Positions 52,214-57,834 of a stretch of 64,000 bases of DNA are shown one piece after another (the stretch's first letter is position 1; each line of letters opens with the position of its first letter). The notes under the pieces were generated by a model, which was given only the letters and a program-made list of their open reading frames with translations, did not search any database and was not told the origin of the DNA. The translations under genes and the position numbers were made by a program. The stretch lies in NCBI GenBank assembly GCA_020851035.1, contig JADZDM010000004.1, forward strand, positions 62,001-126,000, given 5' to 3'. The DNA is from Gemmatimonadaceae bacterium (GTDB lineage: Bacteria; Gemmatimonadota; Gemmatimonadetes; Gemmatimonadales; Gemmatimonadaceae).

Positions 52214-53044
52214 TCAGGCCCTGCGCCGCCGCCGCGCGACGCCGGTCAGGCCGGCGACGTCGTCGGCCGGCGTGCCCGAGGCGGAGATCGTCGAGCCCAC
52301 GAGCACCGCATCGGCGCCGCAGTCCGCGGCCCGTTCGACGTCGGCGCGGGAGCGCACGCCGCTCTCGTAGATCGCGATGTGCGTGACCGGGATGCGCGGG
52401 AGGAGGCGCGCGCTCACGCTGTCGTCGAGTTCGAGGGTCTCGAGGTTGCGGTTGTTGACGCCGATCAGCAGCGCGCCGGACTCCAGCGCGAGCTCGAGCT
52501 CGTGCTCGTCCCGGACTTCGACCAGCGGCTCGACGCCGAGCTTGCGGGCGGTGAAGACGAGGGCGTGGAGGTCGGCGGCGGGCAGGGCGCGCGCGATCAG
52601 CAGCGCCGCGGAGGCACCGGCCTGGCGCGCCTCCACCAGCTGGACGGCGTCGGTGATGAAGTCCTTGCGGATGCAGGGCCCGAGGTCGAGTGCGGCCGCG
52701 ATCCGCAGGTCATCGAGGGCGCCCCCGAACTCGCTCGGCTCGGTGAGGATGGAGAACGCAGTGGCCCCTCCCGAGGCGTACTGCCGCACCTGCAGGGCGG
52801 CATCGAGCGCCGTGTTGATCTCGCCCTTCGACGGCGAGCTGCGCTTGAGCTCCGCGAGGACGGCCACGTCGCTGCGGCGCGTGATGGCGGCGAGGATGTC
52901 GACCGGTGGCGGCACGAGGAGGGCGGCCGCCTCACGCGCCTCGAAGGGCATCGCCGCGCGTGCCGCGGCCGCGCGGGCCGCGCTTGCCGAACTCAGCCGA
53001 CCGAGGGGGCCGACGGGTGCGGTCCAGAGGCGAGCCACTTGCAT
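52214..53044 (-). CDS. trpC: Indole-3-glycerol phosphate synthase
   Basis: A 276-residue protein. VLAELKRSSPSKG has the catalytic Lys, ALDLGPCIRKDFI the second, VEVRDEHELELAL and IGVNNRNLETLELD later motifs, and IAIYESGVRSRADV the C-terminal phosphate site. The N-terminal ~45 residues are an Ala/Arg-rich helix that replaces the usual start. It closes the indole ring. It is the first gene of the trpCFBA run, divergent from lexA. TGCCGAAG repeats lie in its short leader. Confidence 0.95.
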   Translation of the reverse strand: MQVARLWTAPVGPLGRLSSASAARAAAARAAMPFEAREAAALLVPPPVDILAAITRRSDVAVLAELKRSSPSKGEINTALDAALQVRQYASGGATAFSILTEPSEFGGALDDLRIAAALDLGPCIRKDFITDAVQLVEARQAGASAALLIARALPAADLHALVFTARKLGVEPLVEVRDEHELELALESGALLIGVNNRNLETLELDDSVSARLLPRIPVTHIAIYESGVRSRADVERAADCGADAVLVGSTISASGTPADDVAGLTGVARRRRRA

Positions 53045-53110
53045 TTCGGGATTCCTTCGGCAATAGTCTTCGGCAGTTCTTCGGGGTGAACTCCCTGCCT
53101 CGGCAATCTA
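53045..53110. promoter_or_regulatory. trpC-lexA divergent control region with TTCGGCA repeats and a GTTC-N8-GAAC palindrome
   Basis: Read on the plus strand, TTCGG-core units begin at 53045, 53056, 53069 and 53080, plus CTCGGCA at 53099, so the first four are spaced 11, 13 and 11 bases, close to one helical turn. GTTC at 53076-53079 and GAAC at 53088-53091 form an inverted repeat that overlaps the place expected for the lexA -35 box. A TAGCGA at 53109-53114 may be the lexA -10, and TAGATT on the opposite strand (53110-53105) may be the trpC -10. LexA usually represses its own gene, so these elements are candidates for its operator. Confidence 0.5.
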
Positions 53111-53151: not shown

Positions 53152-53763
53152 ATGTCGCTCACCAAGCGCCAGCGCGAAATCCTCACCTTCCTCTCGTTGT
53201 ACGCCGACGAGAACGGGTACGCGCCGAGCTTCGAGGAAATTGCCGAGAACTTCGGGTTCACGAGCCTCGCGACGGTGCACGAGCACCTCAGCAATCTCGA
53301 ACGGAAGGGGTACATCCGGCGTGGCTACAACGAGAGCCGCGCGATCGAGATCCTGCCGTCCGAGTCGTCACCCCGCTTCGTGGAATTGCCACTGCTGGGC
53401 CTGGTTGCGGCCGGCATGCCGATCGAGGCGTCGGGCACGGGTGAGACGATGGCCATCCCGCCGGACATGCTTCGCAAGACGGGCAACCACTACGTCCTCA
53501 AGGTGCGCGGCAACTCGATGATCGACGAGCAGATCCGCGACGGCGACTTCGTGGTGGTCAACGAGCGGAAGAGCGCCGACAACGGCGAGATGGTGATCGC
53601 GCTGCTCGAGCGCACCTCCGCCACGGTGAAGCGCTACTATCGCGAGAAGGACGGCCGCATCCGGTTGCAGCCGGCCAACGAGACCATGGAGCCGATCTTC
53701 ACCGACGAGCGCAACCTGCTGATCCAGGGCGTGGTGGTCGGCGTGCTCCGGCGGTACGCATGA
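53152..53763 (+). CDS. lexA: LexA repressor
   Basis: A 203-residue protein from the ATG at 53152. The N-terminal winged helix (MSLTKRQREILTFLSLYADENG, then SLATVHEHLSNLERKGYIRR) binds operators. The self-cleavage site is Ala87-Gly88 in GLVAAGMP, with Ser122 in GNSMIDEQIRDGD and Lys160 in SATVKRYY forming the dyad. It represses SOS genes until RecA filaments trigger autocleavage. The open frame upstream of the ATG overlaps the control region and is not used. A VOC-family gene overlaps its end by 4 bases. Confidence 0.96.
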   Translation: MSLTKRQREILTFLSLYADENGYAPSFEEIAENFGFTSLATVHEHLSNLERKGYIRRGYNESRAIEILPSESSPRFVELPLLGLVAAGMPIEASGTGETMAIPPDMLRKTGNHYVLKVRGNSMIDEQIRDGDFVVVNERKSADNGEMVIALLERTSATVKRYYREKDGRIRLQPANETMEPIFTDERNLLIQGVVVGVLRRYA

Positions 53764-54143
53764 CCAGCCCGACCTCCATCCGGGGGCTGCGGACGGCGAT
53801 CTACGCCGTTCCCGACCTGGCGGCCGCGAAGGCCTGGTACACATCGGCCCTCGAGCGGCCGCCGTACTTCGACGAGGAGTTCTACGTCGGCTACAACGTC
53901 GGGGGCTTCGAACTGGGCCTGGTGCCGGAGCCCGAGGCGCCGGCGGAGCGGGACGCCGCCGGTGTGGCGTTCTGGGGGGTGGACGACGCCGAGGGCGCCT
54001 ACGCCAGGCTGGTGGGCCTCGGTGCGGCCGACCATGAGCCAGTCCAGGATGTGGGCGGCGGAGTCCGGATCGGCGCCGTGCGCGACCCGTTCGGCAACAT
54101 CCTCGGCGTGGTGCAGAACCCGAATTTCCGCATCGAGGGCTGA
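53760..54143 (+). CDS. VOC (glyoxalase/bleomycin-resistance) family protein
   Basis: A 127-residue protein with the paired beta-alpha-beta-beta-beta modules of the VOC fold: AIYAVPDLAAAKAWYTSAL and, in the second half, GVDDAEGAYARLVGLG through RDPFGNILGVVQNP. A single domain of this size dimerises to make metal- or drug-binding sites. Possible metal residues are few: no His in the first strand, and Glu in FELGLVPEPE. The reaction is not assignable. The overlap with lexA (ATGA) implies cotranscription and perhaps SOS control. Confidence 0.82.
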   Translation: MTSPTSIRGLRTAIYAVPDLAAAKAWYTSALERPPYFDEEFYVGYNVGGFELGLVPEPEAPAERDAAGVAFWGVDDAEGAYARLVGLGAADHEPVQDVGGGVRIGAVRDPFGNILGVVQNPNFRIEG

Positions 54144-54245: not shown

Positions 54246-55436
54246 ATGCGCCTCGTTCTCGTTGACAACGAACACCACGTGGCCGACGCCCACCGGCGCG
54301 CGCTGCGAAGCGTCAGGCCGGAATGGGACGTGGTGCTCGCCAGCACCCCGGCGGCCGCGCTCGAGGCACTCGAGGCAGGCCGCACTGATGTCTTCATCTC
54401 GGAACTGGGCGCCCCCGGCAGCGGGTGTGTCGAGCTGTTCGAAACGGTGAAGGCGCGCTGGCCCTCGATCGTCCGCATCGCGCTGTCGGAGTTCGCGGAC
54501 CGCGCGGTGGCGCTGCGCCTCGAGCGGAGCGTGCACCGCTTCCTCCACAAGCCCTGCGACACTTACACGCTGGCGATGCTGATCGAGCGCAACAGCACGT
54601 TACGTGACGTCGTGCACGATCCCTCGGTGCTGGCTGCCATCGGCGGGCTCGAGGCCATCCCGCGACCACCGGTGACGGTGCAGGCGCTGGAGAAGGTGCT
54701 CGCGGATCCGGATGCCGGCGTGATTGCAGTGGCTGCCGTGATCAGTCGCGACGCCGCACTCACCGCGCGGCTCCTGCGCGTGGTGAACAGTTCGTTCTTC
54801 GGTGTCGGCCGGCAGGTCACGCGCGTCGACGCCGCCGTGAACTTCATGGGCGTCTCGCTGGTGCGGTCGATCGCGCTCGCGGATGGTGCGGTGCGGTCGT
54901 TCACGGTCGATCCGGCGGTGCTCGACCTCGACGACTGGAACATGCACGCCGTGCGCGTGGCCACCGCCTCCCGCGACATCGCACTGGCGATCTGTCCGCA
55001 GGATCGCTCGCTCGCCGACGAGGCGTTCCTCGCCGGCCTCCTGCACGACGTCGGCCAGGTGGTGGTGGCGGGCGTGTCACCGACCCGGTGGCGCGCGCTG
55101 GAAGCCGATGCCAGCGAGGCCGGTGTGTCGGTCGACGTGGTCGAACACCGCACCGGCGCCGTGGCGCATTCGCTGGTGGGCGCGTACCTGCTCAGCCTGT
55201 GGGGACTGCCCTCGGGCGTGATCGAGGCGGTGGCCTTCCACCACACGCCGGAACGCCTGGCGGGCTCCATTTTCGATGCCGCGATTGCGGTGCACATCGC
55301 CGATGCGATGGCAGCGCGCGCCCCGGGACGCATCGCCCCCGCGCTTCACCTGCCGAGCATCCGTGCTGCCGGCATCACCGACGAGCAGCTGCAGGGCTGG
55401 CGCATGCGCTACGGCGCGCTCGACGCCGCGGCCTGA
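54246..55436 (+). CDS. HDOD signalling protein with a degenerate receiver domain
   Basis: A 396-residue protein. Residues 1-120 form a response-regulator receiver: VLVDNE keeps Asp7 of the acid pocket, Ser81 and Lys102 (LHKP) keep the switch and Lys positions, but the phospho-acceptor Asp is Glu53 (FISELGAPGSG). Residues about 140-340 are an HDOD domain (AVAAVISRDAALTARLLRVVNSSFFG, LLHDVGQVV, FHHTPE), a regulatory relative of HD-GYP enzymes. It is probably a cytoplasmic protein acting by protein contacts. It starts 102 bases after the VOC gene and may share its transcript. Confidence 0.85.
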   Translation: MRLVLVDNEHHVADAHRRALRSVRPEWDVVLASTPAAALEALEAGRTDVFISELGAPGSGCVELFETVKARWPSIVRIALSEFADRAVALRLERSVHRFLHKPCDTYTLAMLIERNSTLRDVVHDPSVLAAIGGLEAIPRPPVTVQALEKVLADPDAGVIAVAAVISRDAALTARLLRVVNSSFFGVGRQVTRVDAAVNFMGVSLVRSIALADGAVRSFTVDPAVLDLDDWNMHAVRVATASRDIALAICPQDRSLADEAFLAGLLHDVGQVVVAGVSPTRWRALEADASEAGVSVDVVEHRTGAVAHSLVGAYLLSLWGLPSGVIEAVAFHHTPERLAGSIFDAAIAVHIADAMAARAPGRIAPALHLPSIRAAGITDEQLQGWRMRYGALDAAA

Positions 55437-55448
55437 CGCTCCGCGGCG

Positions 55449-56489
55449 TCAGCCCGCCGGGACCGTCGACGCCGCGACGAGGTCCTGCAGGACGCGCTGC
55501 GGCGCACCGGTGCGCAGCGTCTCGCGCACCTCGTCCACCAGCGCGGCGTAGGTCGACGTGCCGCGGTGCACGAAGAGGGCCGCGGCCGCGTTGAGGATCA
55601 CCGCAGCGCGGGCCGCCGGATTCCCGCCTCCGCCCAGCACCTCGCGCACGAGCACGGCATTCTCGAGCGGCTCGCCACCGGCGAGCTCGGGGGCCCCGAG
55701 CCCGGCGAAGCCGAGGTCCGCGGGATCGATGGTCCATTCCCGAACCGGCGCATCACCACGCAGTTCGCGCACGTGTGTCACGCCGATCGGGGAGATCTCG
55801 TCCATGCCCGGCTCGCCGTGCACGACGAGGGCATGTTCGGTGCCGAGCGTGTGCAGCGCGCCGGCGATCAGGTCGAGCCGGTTGCGGTCCGCGACGCCGA
55901 TCACCTGGCGGCCGGCGCGCGCCGGGTTCGCGAGCGGCCCGATCATGTTCATGACCGTGGGGATCGCGAGCTCGCGGCGCACCGGTCCGACATGCCGCAT
56001 GGCCGGATGCATCAGCGGTGCGAACATGAAGACGATGCCGACCTCGCGCAGGATGGCGGCCATCCGCGCCGGCGTGAGCTCGATCCGCATGCCGAGCGCC
56101 TCGAGCAGGTCGGCACTGCCACTGCGGCTGGTGAAGCTGCGGTTGCCATGCTTGGCGATGCGCACGCCGCACGCCGCGGCCGCGAGCGCGGCGGCCGTGG
56201 AGATGTTGAACGTGGGCACGGCGCCGCCGCCGGTGCCGCAGGTGTCCACCAGCGCGGCGGGGGTGTCGGCGTCGATCGTGATCATGGCGCGGCGCAGGGC
56301 GCGCGCGGCACCCGCGACCTCCGCCGGCGTCTCGCCCTTGACGCGCAGCCCCATGAGCAGCGCCGCCACCTGCGCCGGCGTGGCGCCGCCGCCCATCACG
56401 ACATCGAAGGCCGCGCCGGCTTCGTCGGCGCCGAGGTGATGGCCCCCGGCAAGGCGGCGCACCGCATGGCGCAGCGCCTCGTCGGTCAT
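55449..56489 (-). CDS. trpD: Anthranilate phosphoribosyltransferase
   Basis: A 346-residue protein from the ATG at 56489. DTCGTGGGAVPTFNISTAAALAAAACGV is the PRPP-binding glycine loop, KHGNRSFTSRSGSADLLEALG the anthranilate channel, and PLMHPAMRHVGPVRREL and TVMNMIGPLANPA further motifs. It joins anthranilate to PRPP. It is separated from trpCFBA by lexA, the VOC gene and the HDOD gene and lies on the same strand as trpCFBA, convergent with the HDOD gene (12 bases between stops). trpE and trpG are not in the window. Confidence 0.95.
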   Translation of the reverse strand: MTDEALRHAVRRLAGGHHLGADEAGAAFDVVMGGGATPAQVAALLMGLRVKGETPAEVAGAARALRRAMITIDADTPAALVDTCGTGGGAVPTFNISTAAALAAAACGVRIAKHGNRSFTSRSGSADLLEALGMRIELTPARMAAILREVGIVFMFAPLMHPAMRHVGPVRRELAIPTVMNMIGPLANPARAGRQVIGVADRNRLDLIAGALHTLGTEHALVVHGEPGMDEISPIGVTHVRELRGDAPVREWTIDPADLGFAGLGAPELAGGEPLENAVLVREVLGGGGNPAARAAVILNAAAALFVHRGTSTYAALVDEVRETLRTGAPQRVLQDLVAASTVPAG

Positions 56490-56529
56490 CCTGCCGGCCG
56501 CACTGCGCGCCCGCCGCCGCGCGGCCCGG

Positions 56530-57834
56530 TCACGTCGCCGAGAGCTCGGGCAGCAGACGCTCGGCGAGGCCCGCCTGCGTGGCCACCAGCGCGATGATGA
56601 GGCCCAGCAGCCGGACGCGGTCCACATCGGCCTCGGTGAAGACACCCTGCTGGTTGCGGTTCGCCACGTTCACGACGCCCACCAGGTCCTCGCGGTAGAC
56701 GAGCGGGAAGGCGATGAAGCTGCCGCTGGTGAAGTACTCGTCCTTCAGCAGCGGATGGCGGCTGGCCTGGGTGGCGTCGGTGACGAGGATCACCTGCCGG
56801 CTGGCGGCCACCTTGCCGGCCACACCGCTGCCGATCGCCACGCGGTAGCCGTCGCGCACGTCACGCGCCACGCCGCGGGCCGCGGCCAGGTAGAGCATGC
56901 CCGGCTCCGGCGCCCGCATCATGAGCGACACACGCTGCGCCTGCATGTCCTCGCCGACGAGGTTGAGCAGTTCGTCGGCCAGCCGGCGCGGGTCGGGATC
57001 GCTCGCATCCATCGACAGCACGCGGTCAATCAGCAGCACCGTGCGCTCGCGGTCGCGCAGCTCCTCGTTGCGGCGGTGCAACTCGATGTGCGCCTGCTCG
57101 GTCTGGCCCAGCGCGGACTCGAGCTGCTTCTGCAGCGATTCCGACTTGCGCTGGAAGCGGCGTGCGTCCTCCTCGATGCGGCTCGTCTCGCGCTCGAGCT
57201 GGACGATCCTGGCGTGGTCCGCGCTGCTGGTCTGCGCCGGTGCCAGTGCCGAGAACTTCTGCTCCAGTTCCCCGAGCTTGCGGTCGTACTCGCCGTGGAT
57301 GCGCTGCGTGACGGATTCAAGGGTCACGACTGCCTCGCGGCGGGCATCCATCTCGGCGAAGCGGGCGAAGGCGAGGTCGAAGAGCGCGGCGTTCGGCAGG
57401 AACTTCTCGATGGTCCGGCCGCCGAAGAATTTCTTCGGCTCGACGACGGTCAGGACCCCACCGAGGGCGCCGTCGAAGCGCAGGCCACGAATCGAGAGGG
57501 TGGCGTTCTCCACGGGCGGGAGGCCGAGGAGTCGCGCGAAGTCGGCGGCCCGCTCGGTGACGTCGACGAAGGTCGAGCCGGCCGCGATGCCCTGCCGGAC
57601 GGCAATCGGCAGCTGGTCGAAGGCCACCTCGAGCTGGGTGGGACGCGACGACCCGACCGAGGACGGGCTGAGACGGTCGGTGAGCAACTCGCGGCGTCCG
57701 TCGTATCGGAAGTACGCGAGGTAGGCTCCACGGTCGAGCTCGGCAAGGGCTTCACCCAACACGCCGATCGCGCCGCCCAGGTCGGGCGCGACGGCGAGGG
57801 AGTGCGCCAGGGACGCGAGCGTGCGAGGAGCCAT
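56530..57834 (-). CDS. GAF-domain protein with long coiled coil
   Basis: A 434-residue protein from the ATG at 57834. An N-terminal region of about 175 residues looks like a degenerate GAF or sensor fold, a coiled coil covers about 175-275 (RIHGEYDRKLGELEQKFSAL, QLERETSRIEEDARRFQRKSESLQKQLESAL), and a C-terminal GAF domain follows (about 280-425, GSGVAGKVAASRQVILVTDA and LVGVVNVANRNQQGVFTEADV). There is no kinase, cyclase or HTH, so output must be by protein contact. It starts 40 bases upstream of trpD on the same strand and is divergent from truA. A TTGACA lies upstream at 57916-57911 without an obvious -10 partner. Confidence 0.8.
   Translation of the reverse strand: MAPRTLASLAHSLAVAPDLGGAIGVLGEALAELDRGAYLAYFRYDGRRELLTDRLSPSSVGSSRPTQLEVAFDQLPIAVRQGIAAGSTFVDVTERAADFARLLGLPPVENATLSIRGLRFDGALGGVLTVVEPKKFFGGRTIEKFLPNAALFDLAFARFAEMDARREAVVTLESVTQRIHGEYDRKLGELEQKFSALAPAQTSSADHARIVQLERETSRIEEDARRFQRKSESLQKQLESALGQTEQAHIELHRRNEELRDRERTVLLIDRVLSMDASDPDPRRLADELLNLVGEDMQAQRVSLMMRAPEPGMLYLAAARGVARDVRDGYRVAIGSGVAGKVAASRQVILVTDATQASRHPLLKDEYFTSGSFIAFPLVYREDLVGVVNVANRNQQGVFTEADVDRVRLLGLIIALVATQAGLAERLLPELSAT

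Follow-up and report, generated by a model that had tools for sequence, protein, structure and literature searches.

Receiver domains in which the phosphorylatable aspartate is replaced have been described as aspartate-less receivers (ALRs; Maule et al. 2015, PMC4395418) and as pseudo-receivers (Bourret et al. 2025, PMC12632262). In these papers, glutamate is the most frequent natural substitute, accounting for 26% of substitutions in ALRs, and HDOD is among the output domains highly associated with them (PMC4395418); in pseudo-receivers the second acid is often replaced by asparagine and the aspartate by glutamate, alanine or glycine at position T+1 is rarer, and negative charge is enriched in those loops (PMC12632262). 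The first acid and the lysine are usually kept, and the characterised members are mostly orphans. Constitutive activity and other means of regulation are the options discussed in both papers, and for a small number of constitutively active pseudo-receivers regulation seems to act on availability, synthesis included (PMC12632262). The 2025 review terms the switching of bacterial pseudo-receivers a mystery, and the term HDOD is absent from it. On the output side, the best fold match to the HDOD part of the protein reported here is SadB of Pseudomonas (9qzk), which has no receiver but carries a YbaK-like domain at its N-terminus. c-di-GMP is a ligand of the P. fluorescens SadB, whose HDOD domain was described as non-catalytic (PMC6543031).

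Here we describe a REC-HDOD protein encoded in a 64-kb window, the whole stretch of DNA that was analysed (Table 1). Like the ALRs and pseudo-receivers, it lacks the phospho-aspartate, carries glutamate at that site and asparagine at the second acid, keeps the first acid and the lysine, has an HDOD output and is encoded with no kinase motif nearby; unlike them, its gene sits behind lexA. This linkage and a parallel case at a dnaK–htrA locus make a member of a published class more than routine. We think it fairly probable that the protein is a phosphorylation-independent regulator with a fixed receiver, controlled by SOS-driven synthesis. LexA-dependent synthesis would be a concrete and testable answer for one pseudo-receiver case.

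Table 1 Features of the lexA region and of the REC-HDOD gene, in window coordinates.
Feature	Coordinates	Strand	Evidence
trpC, divergent left-hand neighbour of lexA	52214..53044	-	Pfam IGPS PF00218, 208.5 bits; synteny
Putative LexA operator copy 1, TTCGG-N6-TTCGG	53045..53060	+	Motif search
Putative LexA operator copy 2, TTCGG-N6-TTCGG	53069..53084	+	Motif search
lexA, at the head of the probable transcription unit	53152..53763	+	TIGR00498, 205.3 bits (cut-off 110.95)
Glyoxalase/VOC-fold gene	53760..54143	+	Pfam PF00903; start overlaps lexA stop (ATGA)
REC-HDOD protein, 396 aa	54246..55436	+	ORF translation
Receiver (REC) domain, residues 4-110	54255..54575	+	Pfam PF00072 Response_reg, 34.0 bits (cut-off 30.2); model
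Asp7-Asn8, first metal-binding acid retained and Asn in place of the second	54264..54269	+	Alignments
Glu53 codon GAA, phospho-acceptor position	54402..54404	+	Alignments
Ser81-Glu82, switch Ser kept, small T+1 residue replaced by Glu	54486..54491	+	Alignments
Lys102, conserved	54549..54551	+	Alignments
HDOD domain, residues 138-335	54657..55250	+	Pfam PF08668, 158.5 bits (cut-off 22.9); fold as in SadB 9qzk and 3hc1
trpD, convergent right-hand neighbour	55449..56645	-	TIGR01245, 368.2 bits (cut-off 199.05); synteny

Receiver pocket and domain architecture

An earlier note on this DNA had described an HDOD protein with a receiver, in which Glu53 occupies the phosphorylation site while Asp7, Ser81 and Lys102 are kept. 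Both domains score above their Pfam cut-offs, the alignments place Glu53 exactly at the acceptor position, and the other three residues are all present under these numbers. Beyond that description, the pocket departs at two more positions: the second acid is Asn8 and the T+1 residue is Glu82. The five-residue catalytic set of canonical response regulators is incomplete, as both Asn8 and Glu53 deviate from it. With a Response_reg domain recognised by profile and its phospho-aspartate replaced, the protein is, as judged from its sequence, a member of the published aspartate-less/pseudo-receiver class, and it shows every pseudo-receiver trend cited above from PMC12632262 and PMC4395418, in agreement with that class.

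The pocket is also unusual within the organism's own genome, a draft assembly of 4.97 Mb in 34 contigs. A PF00072 search (E ≤ 1e-5) returned 64 REC domains, all of which could be aligned. The phospho-site is aspartate in 63 of them and glutamate in the REC-HDOD protein alone, which is likewise the only one with asparagine at the second acid (two others are gapped at the acids) and the only one with glutamate at T+1. That position is mostly glycine or alanine in the genome's other receivers (46 of 65 rows, the window protein having been entered beside its own genome copy). The REC-HDOD protein has the lowest REC score of the 64, as might be expected if its receiver were a decaying relic and the HDOD domain alone mattered, a reading that the conservation reported below makes improbable.

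The AlphaFold2 model (mean pLDDT 83.1, pTM 0.79, 11-row alignment) contains a receiver fold, which further argues against a relic. This fold matches many solved receivers, among them HupR (2jk1) and its D55E mutant (2vuh), whose receiver is 26–29% identical in structure alignments. According to its title, 2vuh has glutamate at the corresponding site; there the glutamate is engineered, and HupR, a hydrogenase transcriptional regulator according to the PDB, belongs to another output class. The presence of the D55E receiver among the nearest solved ones, together with the retained Ser81 and Lys102, is what would be expected if Glu53 were a true phosphomimic that contacts these two residues, locks a phosphorylated-like state and is itself the reason why the HDOD output is always on. 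The frequency of glutamate in ALRs and its ability to activate some regulators without phosphate, as given in PMC4395418, point the same way. The same paper, however, states that an Asp-to-Glu change alone is often insufficient and that the activity of ChxR survives replacement of its glutamate. Moreover, asparagine at the second acid and glutamate at T+1 make the pocket unlike that of a simple Asp-to-Glu mutant, and a relative described below (L023) carries the glutamate with serine changed to alanine and lysine to arginine, so that glutamate can be present even when the residues it would contact have been replaced. We therefore regard the phosphomimic as a somewhat unlikely explanation.

For the HDOD part, SadB 9qzk was matched with Z 21.4 over 274 residues (rmsd 3.8, 20% identity), tied with 3hc1 (Z 21.3). 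His234, His267, Asp268, His308, His332, His333 and Asp353 are all present in the protein and in its orthologue; the full set occurs in 4 of 32 rows overall, several of which are short at the C-terminus. We take this set (residues 234–353) to resemble the metal ligands of HD-type domains, and metal binding is possible on that account. By analogy with SadB, the HDOD domain might act by binding c-di-GMP or another ligand, or through a protein contact.

The orthologue and selection on the receiver

A single orthologue was found, on contig JACMPK010000227.1 of a metagenome-assembled genome of the same genus (G001), with 73% identity. Asp7, Asn8, Glu53, Ser81, Glu82 and Lys102 are all retained in it. 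The earlier note had proposed that orthologues with aspartate would reveal a private mutation; the sole orthologue found carries Glu53, and a private mutation is ruled out. Sequencing or assembly error, which a draft source assembly in 34 contigs might suggest, is ruled out as well by the identical residues and synteny in the second assembly, and together these readings keep only a negligible probability. Family-wide, 2 of 179 genomes gave a match at E ≤ 1e-30, both from this genus. In the genus's third genome (G002), neither the REC-HDOD gene nor lexA was matched, so the region may be absent from its assembly and the genome is uninformative.

Between the source genome (G000) and G001, identity is 75% over residues 1–120 and 77% over the HDOD domain (residues 138–335), and the alignment of the two proteins is gap-free. 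The corresponding NG86 dN/dS ratios are ~0.10 for residues 1–120 and ~0.13 for residues 121–335, rough values in view of a dS of 1.2–1.9, with synonymous sites near saturation. These figures, from the one pair of genomes that carries the orthologue, indicate that the receiver is being kept under purifying selection, and they are the main argument against a relic. Since the receiver is under such selection, it probably provides the HDOD part with a structural or dimerising module held in a fixed state.

The constraint is unevenly distributed: residues 81–120, which the AlphaFold2 model assigns to the final helices and strand of the receiver, are 85% identical between the species versus 62.5% for residues 41–80. 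This pattern, and a receiver under much the same constraint as the HDOD part, would also suit a receiver that serves as another kind of sensor, through which a partner protein, a kinase acting without phosphotransfer or a small ligand regulates the HDOD part; such mechanisms are discussed in PMC12632262. Against this stand the facts that no candidate partner was found and that the comparison comprises two sequences only, and we consider the sensor reading unlikely.

REC-HDOD relatives and their kinase neighbours

Two sets of relatives were assembled. A profile search of 395 genomes of the phylum (E ≤ 1e-60, best four candidates per genome scored) identified 11 REC-HDOD proteins, the window protein included, spread over 10 genomes; the phylum's members are 30–34% identical to the window protein. 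A search of 369 genomes from the class of a Gallionella MAG (E ≤ 1e-70, five candidates scored) added 21 proteins in 17 genomes, four of which match profile positions 4–275 only. Among the 32 proteins, the phospho-site is aspartate in 24, glutamate in five, and cysteine, alanine and asparagine in one each; glutamate is hence the most frequent replacement in this sample. As the distant proteins mostly have aspartate, Glu53 looks derived, and it is not private. On a tree of the 32 proteins, glutamate requires four changes, at least two of them forced by well-supported branches, although with 12 of 29 inner branches open the number of changes is unsure. One common glutamate ancestor for all glutamate forms was rejected on these grounds. 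The tree and the site counts suggest that loss of the aspartate recurs in the REC-HDOD architecture.

Regulators with a canonical pocket (e.g., L134 and L137) share the domain order and a similar length with the window protein, but keep both acids (DD), the phospho-aspartate, the serine or threonine and the lysine. They also differ in their gene neighbourhood. Kinases were recognised by a motif that we take to be that of the ATPase domain, and Pfam confirmed such a domain in one example (L134). A narrower pattern, which misses GTGQGL, matched in 1 of 32 loci, and a wider pattern was used for the counts; flanks of ~1.5 kb were inspected, some contigs ending earlier. A kinase motif lies directly upstream of 19 of 22 genes with a canonical pocket versus 1 of 10 genes with an atypical one. 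Fisher's test of kinase against pocket state gave 7e-5, a value that ignores relatedness and counts both orthologues separately. When relatedness was allowed for, three well-supported independent pairs resulted, of which on average 1.8 agree, 0.0 oppose and 1.2 show no difference; three pairs permit no significance, and the kinase association is therefore a trend. The exceptions are a glutamate form with a kinase upstream (L152) and three canonical pockets with no kinase motif upstream (L140, L165 and L166). Two atypical pockets retain the aspartate (L135 and L150), and one glutamate form (L164) is followed by a partial kinase ORF on the opposite strand, which raises the atypical count to 2 of 10 if either flank is considered.

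Searched with the wider pattern and with a second one, the 64-kb window and the orthologue's 12.3-kb contig (L015) gave no match to a kinase ATPase motif. By motif, the usual, though not obligatory, co-encoded partner kinase of canonical response regulators is thus absent at this locus; a distant kinase could act on the REC-HDOD protein in trans.

A probable lexA transcription unit

In both G000 and G001, the gene order is lexA, VOC and HDOD gene, with trpC before lexA; in the window, trpD follows next after the REC-HDOD gene. At 21 other lexA loci from the family and order (flanks ≤1.5 kb), neither a VOC nor an HDOD gene was found; one of these contigs ends 36 bp past lexA and is uninformative (L049), and another ends 319 bp past it, where trpD begins (L040). 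In 18 of the 21, trpD follows lexA convergently and trpC precedes it divergently. The best reading of this synteny is that the VOC and REC-HDOD genes were inserted as a pair at the ancestral lexA/trpD junction and became part of the lexA unit.

The ATGA overlap of the lexA stop and VOC start is found in both species (the window and L015), and 102 bp separate the VOC and HDOD genes. A gap of this size could hold a private promoter for the HDOD gene; its predicted RNA fold is unremarkable (z 0.27). No terminator-like site was detected from lexA to the HDOD gene. Nor did a sigma-70 scan find a promoter before the HDOD gene, but it equally missed the lexA promoter, so its silence carries little weight. 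Taken together, the arrangement suggests that lexA, the VOC gene and the REC-HDOD gene are probably co-transcribed as a lexA operon. Within the literature collection searched, no paper combined HDOD and LexA.

A candidate LexA operator

Of 26 genomes searched, 23 gave a lexA match, and all 23 (L030–L052) carry a direct repeat, TTCGG-N6-TTCGG, upstream of the gene, 21 of them in two copies. As read from the sequence, one copy falls between a −35-like TTGC and −10-like elements and the other just after. A search for an inverted repeat upstream of lexA gave nothing consistent; the conserved element is the direct repeat. The two copies at lexA are the only ones in the 64-kb window, where 0.12 were expected and two were reached in 1 of 100 shuffles. 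In the whole genome, the pattern occurs at 12 sites versus 2 for a reversed control. Apart from the two at lexA, one site precedes a DNA polymerase IV-like gene by 18 bp, another an ImuA-like gene by 46 bp and a third a gene with a weak Y-family match by 94 bp, names that rest on 260-residue stretches. The first two have Pfam matches above cut-off (IMS and RecA), Pfam gives nothing for the last, and all three stay below the NCBIfam cut-offs. Seven of the 12 genomic sites (L120, L124 and L127–L131) have no assigned SOS gene.

TTCGG-N6-TTCGG looks like a LexA operator and is a candidate operator for the phylum; the literature collection searched for LexA in Gemmatimonadetes or Gemmatimonas yielded no paper on such an operator. 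Given the operator-like repeats at the lexA promoter, lexA and the genes downstream are probably SOS-induced.

Proposed control of the REC-HDOD protein

We propose the following course. The ancestor would have been one of the REC-HDOD regulators mostly encoded beside a histidine kinase. With aspartate replaced by glutamate, the second Mg-binding acid by asparagine and the T+1 residue by glutamate, the receiver is probably no longer phosphorylated in the usual way. Control probably shifted to synthesis, REC-HDOD being the third gene of a lexA-VOC-HDOD unit with a putative LexA operator at its promoter; upon DNA damage, LexA would be cleaved and the REC-HDOD protein made. Such control by synthesis has a precedent in the pseudo-receivers that appear to be regulated by availability (PMC12632262). 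The earlier note had held that the protein may be permanently active or regulated by other means; the second option is the one favoured by the absence of a nearby kinase motif, the probable lexA operon and the conserved acceptor-less pocket.

A parallel case at a dnaK–htrA locus

A second glutamate form allows a close comparison. In G186 (L167, 574–6805), the gene order is dnaK, kinase, REC-HDOD (aspartate), second regulator and htrA, whereas in G373 of the same genus (L168, 5659–9863) it is dnaK, REC-HDOD (glutamate and asparagine) and htrA. G373 thus lacks the kinase and the second regulator that flank the REC-HDOD gene it has kept. The matching DNA forms three blocks: dnaK, the REC-HDOD gene, and a stretch before and into htrA. 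Protein identity is 97.7% for dnaK (443 codons) and 95.7% for the start of htrA (47 codons); in the REC-HDOD protein, the receiver is 56% and the remainder 81% identical. The G373 receiver (L023) has asparagine at the second acid, glutamate at the phospho-site and the serine and lysine replacements mentioned above. Its dN/dS is 0.43 versus 0.13 for the rest of the protein, so this receiver is less constrained, unlike that of the window pair; such faster divergence in the parallel case speaks for the reading of the receiver as a decaying relic.

A third genome of this genus (G054) has the kinase, REC-HDOD and second regulator genes together, with no dnaK or htrA match within the 16 kb read, which suggests that the three-gene module is probably older. 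The G373 state fits a loss of neighbour genes. The L023 gene has a higher dS (0.85) than either dnaK (0.47) or the htrA start (0.40), and this elevation makes allele replacement an alternative to neighbour deletion. G186 (aspartate, with kinase) and G373 (glutamate, no kinase) offer a natural comparison of a receiver after kinase loss. Tentatively, the lexA operon and the dnaK/htrA locus of G373 may be instances of a broader course in which kinase-less REC-HDOD regulators are rewired to stress-induced synthesis while the receiver repeatedly changes to a Glu/Asn pocket.

Two other relatives depart from the canonical pocket in a different manner: L159 and L160 have cysteine or alanine at the phospho-site, with leucine replacing the lysine. 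In L159, the REC-HDOD gene comes after an inorganic pyrophosphatase gene (Pfam).
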